From positions 1-35,343 of IMG/VR virus record IMGVR_UViG_3300045051_000408: DNA of 35,343 bases; one strand, given 5' to 3'. The position numbers were made by a program, and so were the translations under genes. Every line of letters begins with the position of its first letter. Position 1 is the stretch's first letter. The notes beneath the pieces were generated by a model, which worked only from the letters and a program-made list of their open reading frames with translations, had not been told where the DNA came from and ran no database searches. Of this stretch, positions 625-28,073 are shown piece after piece. The stretch is from a virus.

Positions 625-2232
625 TTATAGGTCCTCGATTTCTAATTGTTGTTTTGTGTGTTCAATGCGCTTTTGAGCTATGGCGTGATATTCTGGGTCA
701 CGCTCGATGCCGACGAAATTAAAGTTTAGGTTTTTAGCTGCGACTAAAGTTGACCCGCTCCCAGCAAATGGGTCAAGTATTGTGCCGTTTGGTGGTGTTA
801 TGAGTGTGATGAGGTATTCCATGAGCTTGATGGGCTTTACGGTGCTATGGAAATTATTTGTTTTTGCGGCGTCTTTTATTTGTAACAGCGTTGGCAATGC
901 AGCACGAACGACACCAAGGAGATATGCCGTCTTTTCGCTTGTAGTATTCAGCTCTAATTGATTTATGAACGAAACACTTTCGGCAAGGCTTAATCCATTC
1001 GCCTCTATCGTCCTGATAGCATCCTGAATGCTCTCTCTTGTGTTCAAGTTTAGAGATACATTCGAGGTTTTCAACTCTGTTATCGTCTTTAATACCGTTG
1101 ATATGGTGAATATCATGCCCTTCGGGTATTGCTCCGAAATGCTGTGACCATATATGTCTGTGCTCCATGACGAGTCGTCCGCCAAAATATCTGCGGACGT
1201 ATCCTTTACGAGTTCGAGCATGGCCGTTAGGGCCGACTTTAGGTCCTGTTTTTCCCACGCATCGTTTTCCCAGACGAGAAATGAACTGTCAAGCCCACGA
1301 TTGCGCTCGGATTTTGAGGCTTTCGCGACATAGAAAAATCGGGAAGCGCCGCCGGAGTCGTTAAAACCAAGTGGAATATCTTGAGCGCCCATTCCGAAAG
1401 ACTGAGTGCGCTTACCGCCGCGAGACCCGCCTTTGCTTAAACCGAGCTCCCCACTTTGCGCATCGAGCATTTCAGCGGCCCGTTCATCGAATAACACGTT
1501 AGCAGGCCAGCGGCCTTGCACTTGAGAATAGTGCGAATGCTGAGCTTTTTGTCCTTTAGCTTTATAGCTTTGTGAAAAACTATTTCCTTTTTTATGAGAG
1601 ATAGTAATTGTGTCTGTCCCAATCCGCGTCCCATCAATATTGATAGCACCTGTGCCATATTTTAAAACATTCTCAGCAAGTGTTAGCCCCTTCTCTAAAG
1701 GCTTTCGTGCGAGGCAGATTGGCTCGTTTGCGGGCTTAAGTGCTGAGCCCCAGCCGTCCCATTGTTTGGCTTCTGGTGTTGCTGGTCTTGTTCTTATAGC
1801 TCCAGCAACACCGTCTCTAAGTCCCGAGTCAAAAACCCCATCGTCGTTATCGGTCGGGTTTCGGCGCAAAAAGTCCTCATCAACATAAGTTTCGCCTTTA
1901 ACGCCCGCCATTTTATCAATCGCTTTACTGACATTGTGAGACTTGGGGAAGCCTGAGCCATAAATCCACATCACTTGATCGCGAATTTCAAAGCCAGCGT
2001 CTTCAATATTTACAACCATGCGGTGATAGGTTCTGGTCCCGCCAAAACTTAAAACGTGGCCACCGGGTTTTAATACTCGATACACTTCGCGCCAAATATC
2101 AACACTTGGCACGTCGTAATCCCATTTTTTATTCATAAACGCTAAACCGTACGGCGGATCAGTCACCACAGCATCAACCGAGTTATCAGCCAATGTTTTC
2201 ATTTGCTCTAAACAATCGCCGAGTAACAACAA
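625..2232 (-). CDS. Beta-type N4-cytosine/N6-adenine DNA methyltransferase with internal insertion
   Basis: This is a SAM-dependent amino-methyltransferase, probably masking phage DNA from restriction. The catalytic DPPY motif is at residues 25-28 and the SAM-binding DPFAGSGST at 487-495, the motif IV-before-I order of the beta class. TVKP just after the insert and GIERDPEY near the C-terminus are family-typical. At 535 aa it is about 130 residues longer than expected. The excess lies between KASKSERN (about 320) and NNFHSTVKP (about 455), exactly where an HNH gene occupies another frame (854-1258). The methyltransferase frame stays open through the insert, so the protein may carry a frame-shadow domain of unknown effect. 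It lies between the lysis proteins and the hydrolase in the late unit. Confidence 0.88.
   Translation of the reverse strand: MLLLGDCLEQMKTLADNSVDAVVTDPPYGLAFMNKKWDYDVPSVDIWREVYRVLKPGGHVLSFGGTRTYHRMVVNIEDAGFEIRDQVMWIYGSGFPKSHNVSKAIDKMAGVKGETYVDEDFLRRNPTDNDDGVFDSGLRDGVAGAIRTRPATPEAKQWDGWGSALKPANEPICLARKPLEKGLTLAENVLKYGTGAINIDGTRIGTDTITISHKKGNSFSQSYKAKGQKAQHSHYSQVQGRWPANVLFDERAAEMLDAQSGELGLSKGGSRGGKRTQSFGMGAQDIPLGFNDSGGASRFFYVAKASKSERNRGLDSSFLVWENDAWEKQDLKSALTAMLELVKDTSADILADDSSWSTDIYGHSISEQYPKGMIFTISTVLKTITELKTSNVSLNLNTRESIQDAIRTIEANGLSLAESVSFINQLELNTTSEKTAYLLGVVRAALPTLLQIKDAAKTNNFHSTVKPIKLMEYLITLITPPNGTILDPFAGSGSTLVAAKNLNFNFVGIERDPEYHAIAQKRIEHTKQQLEIEDL
854..1258 (-). CDS. HNH endonuclease nested out of frame in the methyltransferase gene
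   Basis: This encodes a 134-aa HNH_3-type nuclease, presumably a homing endonuclease. The core HDIHHING (48-55) followed by DDNRVENLE (58-66) supplies the histidines and asparagines of the HNH fold. The C-terminus has a zinc-ribbon pair, CRKC and CRSC, and a basic tail. It lies wholly inside the methyltransferase gene on the same strand in a different frame. The start is uncertain: GTG at 1258 is used here, and a stop sits nine codons further upstream in this frame with no ATG between. No good ribosome site is visible, so translational coupling or a programmed frameshift are possible. The nuclease motif is convincing; independent expression is inferred. Confidence 0.8.
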   Translation of the reverse strand: MGKTGPKVGPNGHARTRKGYVRRYFGGRLVMEHRHIWSQHFGAIPEGHDIHHINGIKDDNRVENLECISKLEHKREHSGCYQDDRGEWIKPCRKCFVHKSIRAEYYKRKDGISPWCRSCCIANAVTNKRRRKNK

Positions 2233-6510: not shown

Positions 6511-7372
6511 AATTTCCTCGTGAGTTTATGTAATCAATGCAAGCCACAAATCGCGTGACGGATCCTTCAAAGCGGTTTTTTACAATCCTGAAGAACGTCT
6601 CAAGCCTTCCTTGCTTCCATGCGCCTGGAGCAAGGGTTATGCCCTTTGTTGCGATTTTAAAAAGATCACTTGAGCCGTGAAACTCCTCTTGCCCTGGCAC
6701 AAGGTCGTTATTGTTTCTATCTCGCTTTCTGATGTGAGAAACGAGAATGATCGGCACTCCCTGCTCAAGCGATAAAGACCTTGCGGTTTTTGCTATTTCC
6801 TTCACTGCCCTATTTTCGTTTTCATCGTCGTAATCGAAGTAATGAACGTGATCGACGATAATTAAATCCGTTTCGCCAGAGCACAGCACGACCGTCTCGA
6901 TGAATTTCGTCACGTTAAAGTCGCCCTGCTTGTAAAACGTAAAAAGCGTTTTGTAAGTTTCTTGAAACTCTTCTGTGGCAAGCTCTTCGTATTTTTTCCC
7001 GATCTCAAGAAAATCACCAAGCATCCATTTCTGGAAGTTTAATTGAATGTGGTTTCGGTCACGGTCGGCGAGGTAATGTTTTACAAAAAGCTGGTAAAGG
7101 ATTCTGCGCTCGATCTCGTATTGCTCAGCTTCAAGTGCCACATAATGCACTCGCTTGCCTTGTTTTGCGTTGTGCATGGCCACGTTACAGCAGAACTGCG
7201 TCTTACCTCCACCGCTATGAGCTCCGATCAAGATCAAGTCGTTTTTTAAAATGCCCTCCATGGCGTGGTCTAGGTAATCTACTCCGAACGACAAGAGCCC
7301 GTCGCGCATTGATCGCCGTGAATCTTTTTCTTTTTTTGCAATCGTTGAGGATTGGTAAAACGACAGGCTCAT
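6290..7372 (-). CDS. DnaB-like replicative helicase (RecA-fold ATPase)
   Basis: This 360-aa protein contains a RecA-type motor: Walker A GAHSGGGKT at 50-58, a Walker B strand LIIVDH at 170-175 and LVSHIRKR at 210-217, the sensor/arginine region seen in DnaB and gp4-type helicases. It lacks the N-terminal DnaB domain and any primase domain, so it is a compact helicase or a helicase-like ATPase that unwinds DNA at the phage origin with the initiator encoded just upstream (four-base overlap). Residues after about 285 are polar, low-complexity and shared with another gene in a second frame. Confidence 0.85.
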   Translation of the reverse strand: MSLSFYQSSTIAKKEKDSRRSMRDGLLSFGVDYLDHAMEGILKNDLILIGAHSGGGKTQFCCNVAMHNAKQGKRVHYVALEAEQYEIERRILYQLFVKHYLADRDRNHIQLNFQKWMLGDFLEIGKKYEELATEEFQETYKTLFTFYKQGDFNVTKFIETVVLCSGETDLIIVDHVHYFDYDDENENRAVKEIAKTARSLSLEQGVPIILVSHIRKRDRNNNDLVPGQEEFHGSSDLFKIATKGITLAPGAWKQGRLETFFRIVKNRFEGSVTRFVACIDYINSRGNYEKEYEVGDSNQKRTDGFRGLDKASIPDWARGHRPRQVSDHDLLAQNPTSPFGSAKGSRVSQTFKKSYQGHDT

Positions 7373-8067
7373 GCTTCACCGCCAATGAACCCGTCAACCG
7401 GTCGGCCTTTGGGTTTTTGTTGGGATTGGGTTTCTAATAACCTATTGGCTTTTGTGGCAAGGTTTCTTGGGATGAAAGTTTCAAACGAGTTTTGAAAACG
7501 ATAGCCCGAGCCCTGCAGGTAAGCCTCGACCTCGATCATCTCCATGGCTAAAAAGTTTTCATCGTAAAGGGACTCTATGCTTAATTTTATAGCATCAGGT
7601 AACCTGCTATAAAAATAGCCATCCCGGAAGGTTTGGACTTTTTCAATTTTCCGGTCTTTGTCTTTGTCTTTATCCTTATCCTTGTCTTTGTCTTTGTCTT
7701 TAAGAGTATAGATACCCTTTGGATACTCTTCAAAAACATCACCTAAAATTGAATGTTTTTTAAGCAGTTTGATTATGGCGAGGTGCGGTCTTGCCTGTTC
7801 TTTAAGCTCTCCGTACTGAAATTCAATGAAGTCCGGGATAAAAATCTTGCCACCAAGGTCTATTGTTTTGCCATTAAAACAGGCAAAAACATCCTCCAAA
7901 GTAAACCGATTTCCGGTGAAAAAATAGACAGAATCAAGGTCAATTTCCCACACTCCAGCGATGTCACAAGAGTCCAAAATAAACTGCCTAACATCTCGCT
8001 GAGAAGAGCTTAGTTTTCTAAACCATTCCTTTTTCCATTTGTCTGTATCAGTAAATCTCTTTGCCAC
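7369..8067 (-). CDS. Phage replication initiator-like protein with (KD)8 linker
   Basis: A 232-aa protein resembling the O-like initiator / DnaD-like replication proteins that precede phage helicases. The N-terminal part (1-110, with RDVRQFILDSCDIAGVWEID) looks like a winged-helix DNA-binding domain; a (KD)8 linker follows at about 124-139, then a helical C-terminal domain likely to load the helicase. It starts at GTG 8067 with GGGGGAT upstream. The gene carries an array of eight hexamers (7654-7701), possibly part of the origin. Family assignment is from architecture and gene order. Confidence 0.75.
   Translation of the reverse strand: MAKRFTDTDKWKKEWFRKLSSSQRDVRQFILDSCDIAGVWEIDLDSVYFFTGNRFTLEDVFACFNGKTIDLGGKIFIPDFIEFQYGELKEQARPHLAIIKLLKKHSILGDVFEEYPKGIYTLKDKDKDKDKDKDKDKDRKIEKVQTFRDGYFYSRLPDAIKLSIESLYDENFLAMEMIEVEAYLQGSGYRFQNSFETFIPRNLATKANRLLETQSQQKPKGRPVDGFIGGEA
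7654..7701. repeat. Eight-copy hexanucleotide array inside the initiator gene
   Basis: The 48 bp consist of three GTCTTT, two ATCCTT and three GTCTTT units on the plus strand, each encoding Lys-Asp. Unit changes keep the frame, so copy number can vary without truncation. Lambdoid origins lie inside the initiator gene, so these hexamers are a candidate origin element; alternatively they only encode a flexible charged linker. Confidence 0.75.
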
Positions 8068-25978: not shown

Positions 25979-26091
25979 CATCGTGATAGCCCCCCTCACG
26001 ATGAATAAATCGGGAGGTCGAATAAACGACCCCCCAAGAGAAAAACTTAACGGTCACCACTGAATGCTAATGTAGTTCACTAAAACTACAT
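25979..26091 (-). terminator. Three strong hairpins after the major capsid gene
   Basis: Stem 1: ATGTAGTT/AACTACAT (26070-26091), starting in the coat stop codon. Stem 2: GGGAGGTCG/CGACCCCCC (26012-26035, one A-C mismatch). Stem 3: CATCGTGA/TCACGATG (25979-26003), perfect. No long U-run follows any of them on the minus strand, so mRNA stabilisation or partial termination is more likely than a complete stop. The 154-base gap has no reading frame. Confidence 0.55.
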
Positions 26092-27233
26092 CACCATTGG
26101 ATATTGATAGAAAAACCCGGAGCTTTACAGCCAAGGTTTCCATAAAATCCGTAGCGCACTTCAACGCCATCAGCAGACGCCTGACGAAGCATTTGAAGAC
26201 CATCAGTGTCGATCACTCGTACAGCTTTACCAAGAGAGTAAAGTTTCCAAGTATCAAGCTGCACACCGAAGCAACGATCGCTTGGGCAGTTTTGATCTGG
26301 AATAACTTTTACCATCCCACGAGGACCGTTTAGCATGATCCCACGGAAGCCAATGTCAGCATTAACCTTAAGATCAACATACTGAACCTTAGATCCTAAA
26401 GACTTCTCAAGCTGAGCGTATTTAGAATAATCCATGAAGTAATGGTCAATCTTGCCACCTTCACGAGCAACACGGCTTGCACCTTCGATCAACGCCTCCT
26501 CAAGAGGAATGTTAGTCGCTGCATATCTCTGACCACCAAGACGAGTTACATCTACAGAGCGATCAACACCAAAAAAAGCAGTAGCACCGGGAGCAGAAGA
26601 AGGAAGCCATGCTTCAAGACCTGACATCTTAAGACCACGGTCGCCGTTAACGAATAAATAATCGTTAGCCGCAATGGTACCAGAAGCGTTATAAGTCTGA
26701 GAGATAGTGATCGTGCCAGCTGAGCGGTTAATCGCAGAGATAGCTCCGGCAGTTGTAGAACCGTCAAAGTTTCTCTGAGTTCCACCACTTGTCGCAGACC
26801 AGATTACAAGCTGCATTCCAACTTCAAAGTTAGTAATGTCGTTAATGTTCTTAAGCGTAATCACAGTCGTTGCAGCTTCAGCGGGCTCAGCGTTTACTTG
26901 ACCGATCCAACCTGTAGAATCGCGATACATTGCCACAGCCAAAGAGCGAGTTAAGCTATTAATAGCTCCGTCGATCTCAGTTGTTGCCGCTTCCATGAAC
27001 GCGTTAGCGTTACCTTTAGAAGCCTCAAGAGTTTCGTTATCAATCGTAGCGATTGAGTAATCTTTTACTCTTGTAAGTGTGAAAGCCTCAATCAAGCTGT
27101 TTGTTACGCCGCCACGAGTTTGCGCTGTAGCGAATGTAGCAGAACGGCCTTGAGGGTTTCCGTAGATTAAAGGGATTGGCAAGTTACGGCCACCAAAGTT
27201 TTCATACTTAGGGGCTAATGCCAAAAATGGGTT
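26091..27233 (-). CDS. Major capsid protein, exon 2
   Basis: This exon gives residues 29-408 of the coat protein, starting NPFLALAPKYENFGG. With exon 1 (27990-28073) it gives a continuous 408-aa HK97-like coat: exon 1 ends VYKD, and VYKD-NPFLA followed by ENFGGRNLPIPLIYGNPQGR reads as a single uninterrupted N-terminal segment. The frame looks open back to a TTG at 27236, but that TTG straddles the intron end and has no ribosome site. The coat is unusually rich in Ala, Gly and Thr, as expected. It should be the most abundant late product, made only after splicing. Confidence 0.92.
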   Translation of the reverse strand, partial: NPFLALAPKYENFGGRNLPIPLIYGNPQGRSATFATAQTRGGVTNSLIEAFTLTRVKDYSIATIDNETLEASKGNANAFMEAATTEIDGAINSLTRSLAVAMYRDSTGWIGQVNAEPAEAATTVITLKNINDITNFEVGMQLVIWSATSGGTQRNFDGSTTAGAISAINRSAGTITISQTYNASGTIAANDYLFVNGDRGLKMSGLEAWLPSSAPGATAFFGVDRSVDVTRLGGQRYAATNIPLEEALIEGASRVAREGGKIDHYFMDYSKYAQLEKSLGSKVQYVDLKVNADIGFRGIMLNGPRGMVKVIPDQNCPSDRCFGVQLDTWKLYSLGKAVRVIDTDGLQMLRQASADGVEVRYGFYGNLGCKAPGFSINIQW

Positions 27234-27989
27234 CAATTATGTTACCGTGAAAGTTTTTTATCTCTCACTTCTTCCGGTCCCCCGGAAGTTCAGCGTACAT
27301 TTTCAACCGCGAACGGTTGTCGGACACTCTTGGAAGGGTTCTATTCTGTCTCTTTTTATGCTGTTTTCAAAATGCCAAAGAGGCTGAAGGTTAGTGTAAT
27401 GACAAGCCTTAGCCATTTCCTTTTGATTTGTTAAATCAAAAGAAGATAGCGGTCTAATATGGTCAAGGTGCCAGCCCTTAATACCATAATTATTCCAATT
27501 CATGCCCGCCTTAAATTTTCCCTCAATATAAACGCGCAATTCTTGGTAAGAGCATCCCAACATAGCCTTAGTAGATTGATCTCTTCTTTTTCCATTTAAG
27601 GCTCTATTTAATCTAGTTCTAATTGCGTGAGCCAGTCTTGCGTTTATATTTTCCTTTAATCTAATCTTCGTTAAAAGATTAGATCTCTCTTTGTATTTTT
27701 CCGCATAAGTTTTTTTGTAATTGCGAAGATGCTCTTGATTTTGTTTTTTCCATAAATCAAGGCGAGCCTTAGTTTTTAAACTTTGGCTTCTGTGGCGACG
27801 ACAAACACCGATTGTGTTGTCGATTCTAATTTTTTGACCACAAACTTCACAATTCACAGTTTCACCTTCTACGCGTTACGGTTCTTATCGGTTTTACCCT
27901 TTAAGTTACCTCGGAGTTATCTGTTCTAGACTTTCTCCGATTTTGCCCAATGTTTACTCTTAAGTTACCTCAAGAGGGGACTAACCTTA
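27234..27989 (-). ncRNA. Group I intron in the major capsid gene
   Basis: The intron is 756 nt. The 5' exon ends in U (GAU) and the intron ends in G, as the class demands. P1: GGAU of the exon plus UA of the intron pairs with UAGUCC around AGGU, placing a U-G wobble at the 5' splice site. P10: GGUU in the guide (27986-27983) pairs with AACC opening exon 2. The 3' part has UUCG (27304-27319) and GNRA (27271-27288) hairpins and a third stem (27247-27268), fitting P8 and P9-type elements. I did not resolve P3, P4, P6 and P7. The intron begins with an in-frame UAA, so unspliced RNA makes only a 28-residue peptide. Confidence 0.92.
27303..27857 (-). CDS. Intron-encoded HNH homing endonuclease
   Basis: A 184-aa HNH nuclease. 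The N-terminal CEVCGQKIRIDNTIGVCRRH (3-22) is a Cys/His zinc finger; the middle is basic and helical (NARLAHAIRTRLNRALNGKR, about 70-89); the catalytic part is WHLDHIRPLSSFD (about 128-140), NLQPLWHFEN (about 156-165) and a following Lys. It starts at GTG 27857 with AGAAGG seven bases upstream. The stop codon lies in the UUCG hairpin of the intron, so the ORF and ribozyme overlap. It should cut intronless coat genes and spread the intron. Confidence 0.9.
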   Translation of the reverse strand: MNCEVCGQKIRIDNTIGVCRRHRSQSLKTKARLDLWKKQNQEHLRNYKKTYAEKYKERSNLLTKIRLKENINARLAHAIRTRLNRALNGKRRDQSTKAMLGCSYQELRVYIEGKFKAGMNWNNYGIKGWHLDHIRPLSSFDLTNQKEMAKACHYTNLQPLWHFENSIKRDRIEPFQECPTTVRG

Positions 27990-28073
27990 ATCCTTATAAA
28001 CTAAATTTTCTACGCGCAGATCCGTATAGTGTTCTTTAAGAGCAGCGTCAAAAGACGTCATATCTAAAGCCAT
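27990..28073 (-). CDS. Major capsid protein, exon 1
   Basis: It encodes residues 1-28 (MALDMTSFDAALKEHYTDLR then VENLVYKD), too short to be found as a separate gene. ATG 28073 has a strong AAGGAG seven bases upstream, absent from exon 2, which marks the true coat start. After GAU comes UAA in the intron; splicing joins codon 28 to AAC. The intron is in phase 0. Confidence 0.92.

Follow-up and report, generated by a model that had tools for sequence, protein, structure and literature searches.

Group I introns in phage coat genes have been described before. The major capsid gene of the mycobacteriophage LittleE (Cluster J) has an intron, most likely of group I and about 0.8 kb long, whose splicing was demonstrated by RT-PCR and by sequencing the N terminus of the protein (PMC3706429). 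The same paper cites a group I intron in the capsid subunit gene of the lactococcal phage Tuc2009, and one gene of the staphylococcal phage Twort has three introns according to a citation (PNAS 1999 96:7005) in PMC6669764. The window analyzed here is the whole 35,343-nucleotide stretch of virus record IMGVR_UViG_3300045051_000408. Its coat gene and that of LittleE are alike in having an intron with an endonuclease open reading frame (ORF), a U before the intron and a G at its end. The two phages belong to different lineages and their coats to different families. In LittleE the nuclease is LAGLIDADG-like and encoded on the opposite strand, whereas the nuclease of the window is HNH/endonuclease VII-like, encoded on the sense strand and placed in P7.1. 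The likeness to Tuc2009, as that phage is described in the citing paper, is a capsid-gene group I intron and is one of description, not sequence. Twort, as cited, resembles one relative of the window (L034) in having several group I introns in a single gene, whereas the window gene has one.

Coat-gene introns with endonucleases are already known (LittleE, Tuc2009), and the window is a well-supported further example. Very probably, its coat gene is interrupted between the Asp28 and Asn29 codons by a mobile group I intron that contains a nuclease ORF and is spliced out for the full coat. It is less ordinary that a single coat gene has so many insertion sites and that the nuclease is placed in P7.1; no description of either was found in a literature search that covered few subscription papers.

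The two exons of the coat gene

Direct reading of the minus strand located an ATG at 28073, preceded by AAGGAG, that opens a frame encoding MALDMTSFDAALKEHYTDLRVENLVYKD and is closed directly afterwards by an in-frame TAA, the first three intron bases (27989-27987). The NPFLA frame begins at 27233, after a gap of 756 nt, and no ribosome site was seen on direct reading before this start or before the TTG at 27236. The second frame encodes a phage major capsid protein, whose sequence matched NCBIfam NF033394 capsid_maj_Podo (89.2 bits with a cut-off of 80) and Pfam SU10_MCP. The earlier note had described this arrangement, which the reading bore out, and had anticipated that automatic annotation would yield a truncated coat; a mechanical gene caller did place the coat start at TTG 27236.

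Scanning IMG/VR with exon 2 yielded 80 loci, and almost all of the roughly 75 relatives had an uninterrupted frame linking a VYKD-like motif with an NPxx-like one, in agreement with the continuity that the earlier note had proposed for the coat. The VYKD-NP frame was unbroken in all loci holding the region except L002, L017, L018, L023, L034 and L069. IMG/VR was scanned again with an alignment of 12 members; of the 80 loci obtained, many lay on contigs already known from the first scan, and no further intron-bearing coat gene was detected. When 27990 is joined to 27233 the DNA reads GAT-AAC-CC, and the junction DNA of the intronless relatives is GAYAAYCC; the predicted spliced joint has TATAAGGAT followed by AACCCATTT. 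Because the relatives continue without interruption from VYKD to NP with this junction DNA, 27990/27233 is the sole joint that restores the frame. The exon/intron split of the coat gene is confirmed, with boundaries exact to the base (Table 1), and the previously proposed boundaries (27990/27989 and 27234/27233) hold, since the frame-restoring joint is unique and a covariance model described below (R2) also ends at 27234.

Given the stop that follows VYKD and the frame that is open from TTG, the region could also be read as one gene for a leader peptide of 28 codons and another for a shortened coat, on either side of a nuclease gene unrelated to both. We regard this as extremely improbable, because exons 1 and 2 form one gapless frame in nearly all of the relatives and the spacer has the fold of a group I core.

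The searches revealed neither a close relative in culture nor a host: neither the coat protein nor the portal matched any of 50,697 isolate phage records, and the terminase reached only about 24% identity in the same records. The genome collection held one coat relative, at 55% identity, in a Rhodobacteraceae MAG.

Table 1. Features of the split coat gene in the window and intron insertion sites among its relatives (L numbers are IMG/VR loci).
Feature	Position	Strand	Details or loci
Major capsid gene exon 1	27990..28073	(-)	28 codons (MALDM...NLVYKD); SD AAGGAG upstream
Major capsid gene exon 2	26091..27233	(-)	NPFLA...; NF033394 and SU10_MCP matches
Group I intron	27234..27989	(-)	756 nt; begins U^UAAGG, ends G
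P1	27978..27993	(-)	27993-27988/27983-27978; U27990.G27981 at 5' splice site
P2	27957..27976	(-)	8 bp, GUAA tetraloop
P3 5' strand	27945..27950	(-)	UUGGGC; partner 27325-27320
P4 and P5	27911..27940	(-)	P4 27940-27935/27916-27911; P5 27931-27928/27922-27919
P6 and P6a	27880..27910	(-)	
P7 5' strand	27870..27874	(-)	GCGUA; partner 27297-27293 UACGC
P7.1 5' strand	27865..27869	(-)	GAAGG; partner 27337-27333 CCUUC
HNH/endonuclease VII-like homing-type endonuclease ORF	27303..27857	(-)	184 aa, P7.1 loop; stop overlaps P8/J8-7
P3 3' strand	27320..27325	(-)	GUCCGA; within last codons of nuclease ORF
P8	27304..27319	(-)	CAACCG-UUCG-CGGUUG
P7 3' strand	27293..27297	(-)	UACGC
P9	27271..27288	(-)	7 bp, GGGA loop
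P9.1	27247..27268	(-)	hairpin GUGAGAG-AUAAAAAA-CUUUCAC, then GGUAAC..UUG
Site A1			FD/AALKQ; L018
Site A2			inside Leu codon of AALKQ; L017, L034, L069
Site B			DRV/ENMV, inside Val codon; L023
Site C			VYKD/NP; window, L002, L017, L034
Site D			inside Leu codon of NEVL/EASK; L034
Site E			inside Ile codon of TEI/DGA; L069

The group I core

The U27990.G27981 wobble of P1 at the 5' splice site and the terminal G27234, both proposed earlier, were present as in group I introns. A group II intron was considered and ruled out by the terminal G together with the group I core. P10 was found where it had been placed, pairing GGUU (27986-27983) with AACC (27233-27230), and was perfect in the window and in L002. 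Judged by eye it was poor in the site-C introns of L017 and L034, so P10 supports the 3' splice site rather than fixing it, as had been claimed; the site is fixed by the intronless relatives.

Searching the window with Rfam at curated thresholds gave no match. With an E-value threshold, Intron_gpI (RF00028) scored 13.1 bits, compared with a gathering score of 50, presumably because an ORF of about 0.5 kb splits the core and because P7 is GCGUA/UACGC in place of GACUA/UAGUC. The ORF-less site-C intron of L034 scored 103 bits with the same model (E 8.5e-26), and the P3-P9 core layout is common to RF00028 and the window intron. Group I introns as such are not defined by a gathering-level match to Rfam, and a verdict based on Rfam only would have gone, wrongly, against the intron.

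Seven introns from sites B, C, D and E were aligned with the L034 site-C intron as guide after the ORFs had been trimmed from their loops, and helices P2, P3, P4, P5, P6, P6a, P7, P7.1, P8, P9 and P9.1 were written on the alignment. Over 61 pairs, 92.1% of cells were paired (69.7 +/- 1.6 in shuffles, and 31-44% with slid partners, a control that flatters the pairing counts since the helices were drawn while looking at the window sequence). Two-sided changes were detected in 46 of the 61 pairs (21 in shuffles, 7-17 with slid partners), and the covariation score was 0.674, compared with 0.228 in shuffles. P2 to P9 all formed, and compensatory changes were present in every core helix, including P3, P4 and P7, which were 100% paired. 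An extra stem of 5 bp, P7.1, was located between P7 and P3, and all five of its pairs were changed on both sides; extra P7.1/P7.2 stems in this position are characteristic of the group IA subgroup.

Leave-out covariance models were built with automatic structures from the 5' halves (R1) and 3' halves (R2) of five introns (L017 C, L034 C, L034 D, L069 E and L023 B), excluding the window and its close relative L002. The automatic structures recovered P4/P5/P6 and P8/P9/P9.1. R1 matched the window at 27956-27865 with 75.4 bits (E 3.9e-17) and R2 at 27337-27234 with 93.3 bits (E 8.9e-22), E-values that are rough by the tool's own statement; the R2 match ended on the predicted last intron base, and the next-best matches in the 35 kb window had about 11 bits. 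Over 54 coat loci, only intron-bearing loci matched at E below 0.1. Matches of this strength to both halves argue that the intron signal is not due to chance, and this test is independent of the structure having been drawn with the window in view. A complete group I core in the window intron is supported by these sequence comparisons, as is the interpretation of the split coat as a group I intron. The core that the earlier note had expected a covariance model to detect was thus recovered by the leave-out models and the compensatory pairs, and missed by the stock Rfam model at 13 bits.

Proteins assist the splicing of some group I introns. The presence of an intron-encoded protein would suit an intron that depends on its own nuclease as a maturase, or on a host factor, in which case the term self-splicing would be inaccurate. 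The L034 intron of the same site and class has no ORF at all and the core of the window intron looks complete, and we consider protein-dependent splicing unlikely.

A conserved 3' hairpin (GAUAAAAARCY..CGRUAACA) was tried as P7 or P8 and rejected; in L034 it lies after P9, hence its assignment as P9.1. At least 120 IMG/VR stretches matched its pattern, RGATAAAAARCYNNNNCGRTAACA. Two of 12 checked loci with the motif held gathering-level Rfam group I introns, not always adjoining the motif. The P9.1 hairpin class is possibly a widespread phage intron subtype that is partly missed by Rfam.

Intron-encoded nucleases and introns in the relatives

The endonuclease ORF within the intron and the intron sites in relatives are additions to the earlier note. 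The ORF extends from a GTG at 27857 to a TGA at 27305-27303. Its product is related to phrog_1035 endonuclease VII (E 5.2e-7) and has relatives in 113 phage records, all below 60% identity; no Pfam or NCBIfam family was above cut-off. The L069 site-E nuclease, though in a different intron, is homologous (38% identity) and has the motif WHLDHIRPLS..NLQPLW in common with it. L002 was the only IMG/VR contig recovered for the nuclease with exact peptide patterns. Between the window and L002 nucleases dN was 0.15 and dS 0.77 (dN/dS about 0.2), so the ORF is maintained by purifying selection. The 184-residue protein would be a homing endonuclease that cuts intronless alleles.

These data also bear on whether the window holds a decayed group I intron, or an assembly chimera, that is no longer spliced, with the coat made from TTG 27236 or absent. 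The TTG-started coat of the mechanical caller agrees with such a reading. However, the core helices are all intact, P7 by compensatory change, both exons are conserved in frame with the intronless relatives, the TTG has no ribosome site before it, L002, L017 and L034 have introns at the same site, and the endonuclease has the low dN/dS given above. Decay or chimerism is thus very unlikely, and we infer that the group I intron is spliced in vivo.

Seven of 108 distinct coat genes contained introns, 11 in total at six sites, with up to three per gene; the genes of the six exceptional relatives were split by tblastn and reading of the intron ends. Once the frame was restored, all 11 introns had a 5' exon ending in U and ended in G themselves. 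Reading into the intron, an in-frame stop was reached after 2-8 nt in ten cases and after 28 nt in the eleventh. The four A-site introns comprise a second subtype, in which P3 and P7 had two-sided changes (among only four sequences). The window, L002 and L017 have their nuclease ORF in the P7.1 loop; in the L034 D, L069 E and L023 B introns it is in P9. The coat gene of the lineage is unusually intron-prone.

A tree of the 108 distinct coat proteins, obtained by a quick search and with many weak forks, gave minimum numbers of gains or losses of three for site C, three for site A2 and six for any intron. L020, the nearest relative of L017 on this tree, has no intron. Such a scattered distribution agrees with introns having been gained or lost repeatedly, which would be expected if they are homing introns, and carries neither dating nor polarity.

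The coat gene of L034 (692-4000) contains three introns, with a GIY-YIG nuclease at A2, no ORF at C and an HNH-type nuclease at D. The D nuclease reads WELDPYFPIS in place of WHLDHIRPLS, with a His lost and DH changed to DP, and may be dead. In L018 a GIY-YIG-like ORF (about 2010-2665) was seen by eye just upstream of the coat start, outside the A1 intron.

Elsewhere in the window, an N6/N4 DNA methylase ORF (625-2232, minus strand; Pfam N6_N4_Mtase, E 2e-33) has an in-frame insert between ..SERNRGL and NNFHSTVKP... Another frame of this insert (854-1258, minus strand) encodes a complete HNH_3 endonuclease from a GTG (E 2e-18). The arrangement is that of the ShiLan domain, reported as an HNH hidden within methylases of actinobacteriophages (PMC11855218); the present phage is apparently unrelated to them. 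A translated ORF at 7369-8067 (minus strand), probably a replication-region gene, has a (KD)n run, TLKDKDKDKDKDKDKDKDKDRK, a short tandem repeat.

Proposed splicing and homing

In the proposed mechanism, transcription would give a pre-mRNA whose exon 1 is translated until the UAA at the start of the intron. Since this UAA comprises the first three intron bases, ribosomes would be kept out of the ribozyme. The intron would then fold into P1-P9.1, with guanosine attacking after U27990 and exon 1 attacking after G27234, and the joined exons would encode a coat of 408 residues. The HNH/endonuclease VII-like protein would cut intronless VYKD-NP alleles, allowing the intron to spread. The coat is the most abundant virion protein and would need the spliced message; therefore, splicing would have to be efficient. 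Splicing might also delay or tune coat production, as the earlier note proposed.

The Shine-Dalgarno-like GAAGG at 27869-27865, 7 nt before the nuclease GTG, is itself the 5' strand of P7.1, and the final nuclease codons contain the 3' strands of P7.1 and P3 as well as P8. Because of this overlap, nuclease translation and ribozyme folding are expected to compete and would be mutually exclusive.

With the mechanical ORF call the window coat appears truncated, and the intron escapes Rfam. We suggest tentatively, as a possible but doubtful extension, that in this phage lineage the coat gene acts as a multi-site intron trap, with six sites and two nuclease families, combined, in the window subtype, with an either/or switch between splicing and nuclease production. 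If this is true, unspliced RNA would yield the nuclease and spliced RNA the coat. The introns at six sites, beside many intronless alleles, form a natural series for intron gain, loss and nuclease swapping.
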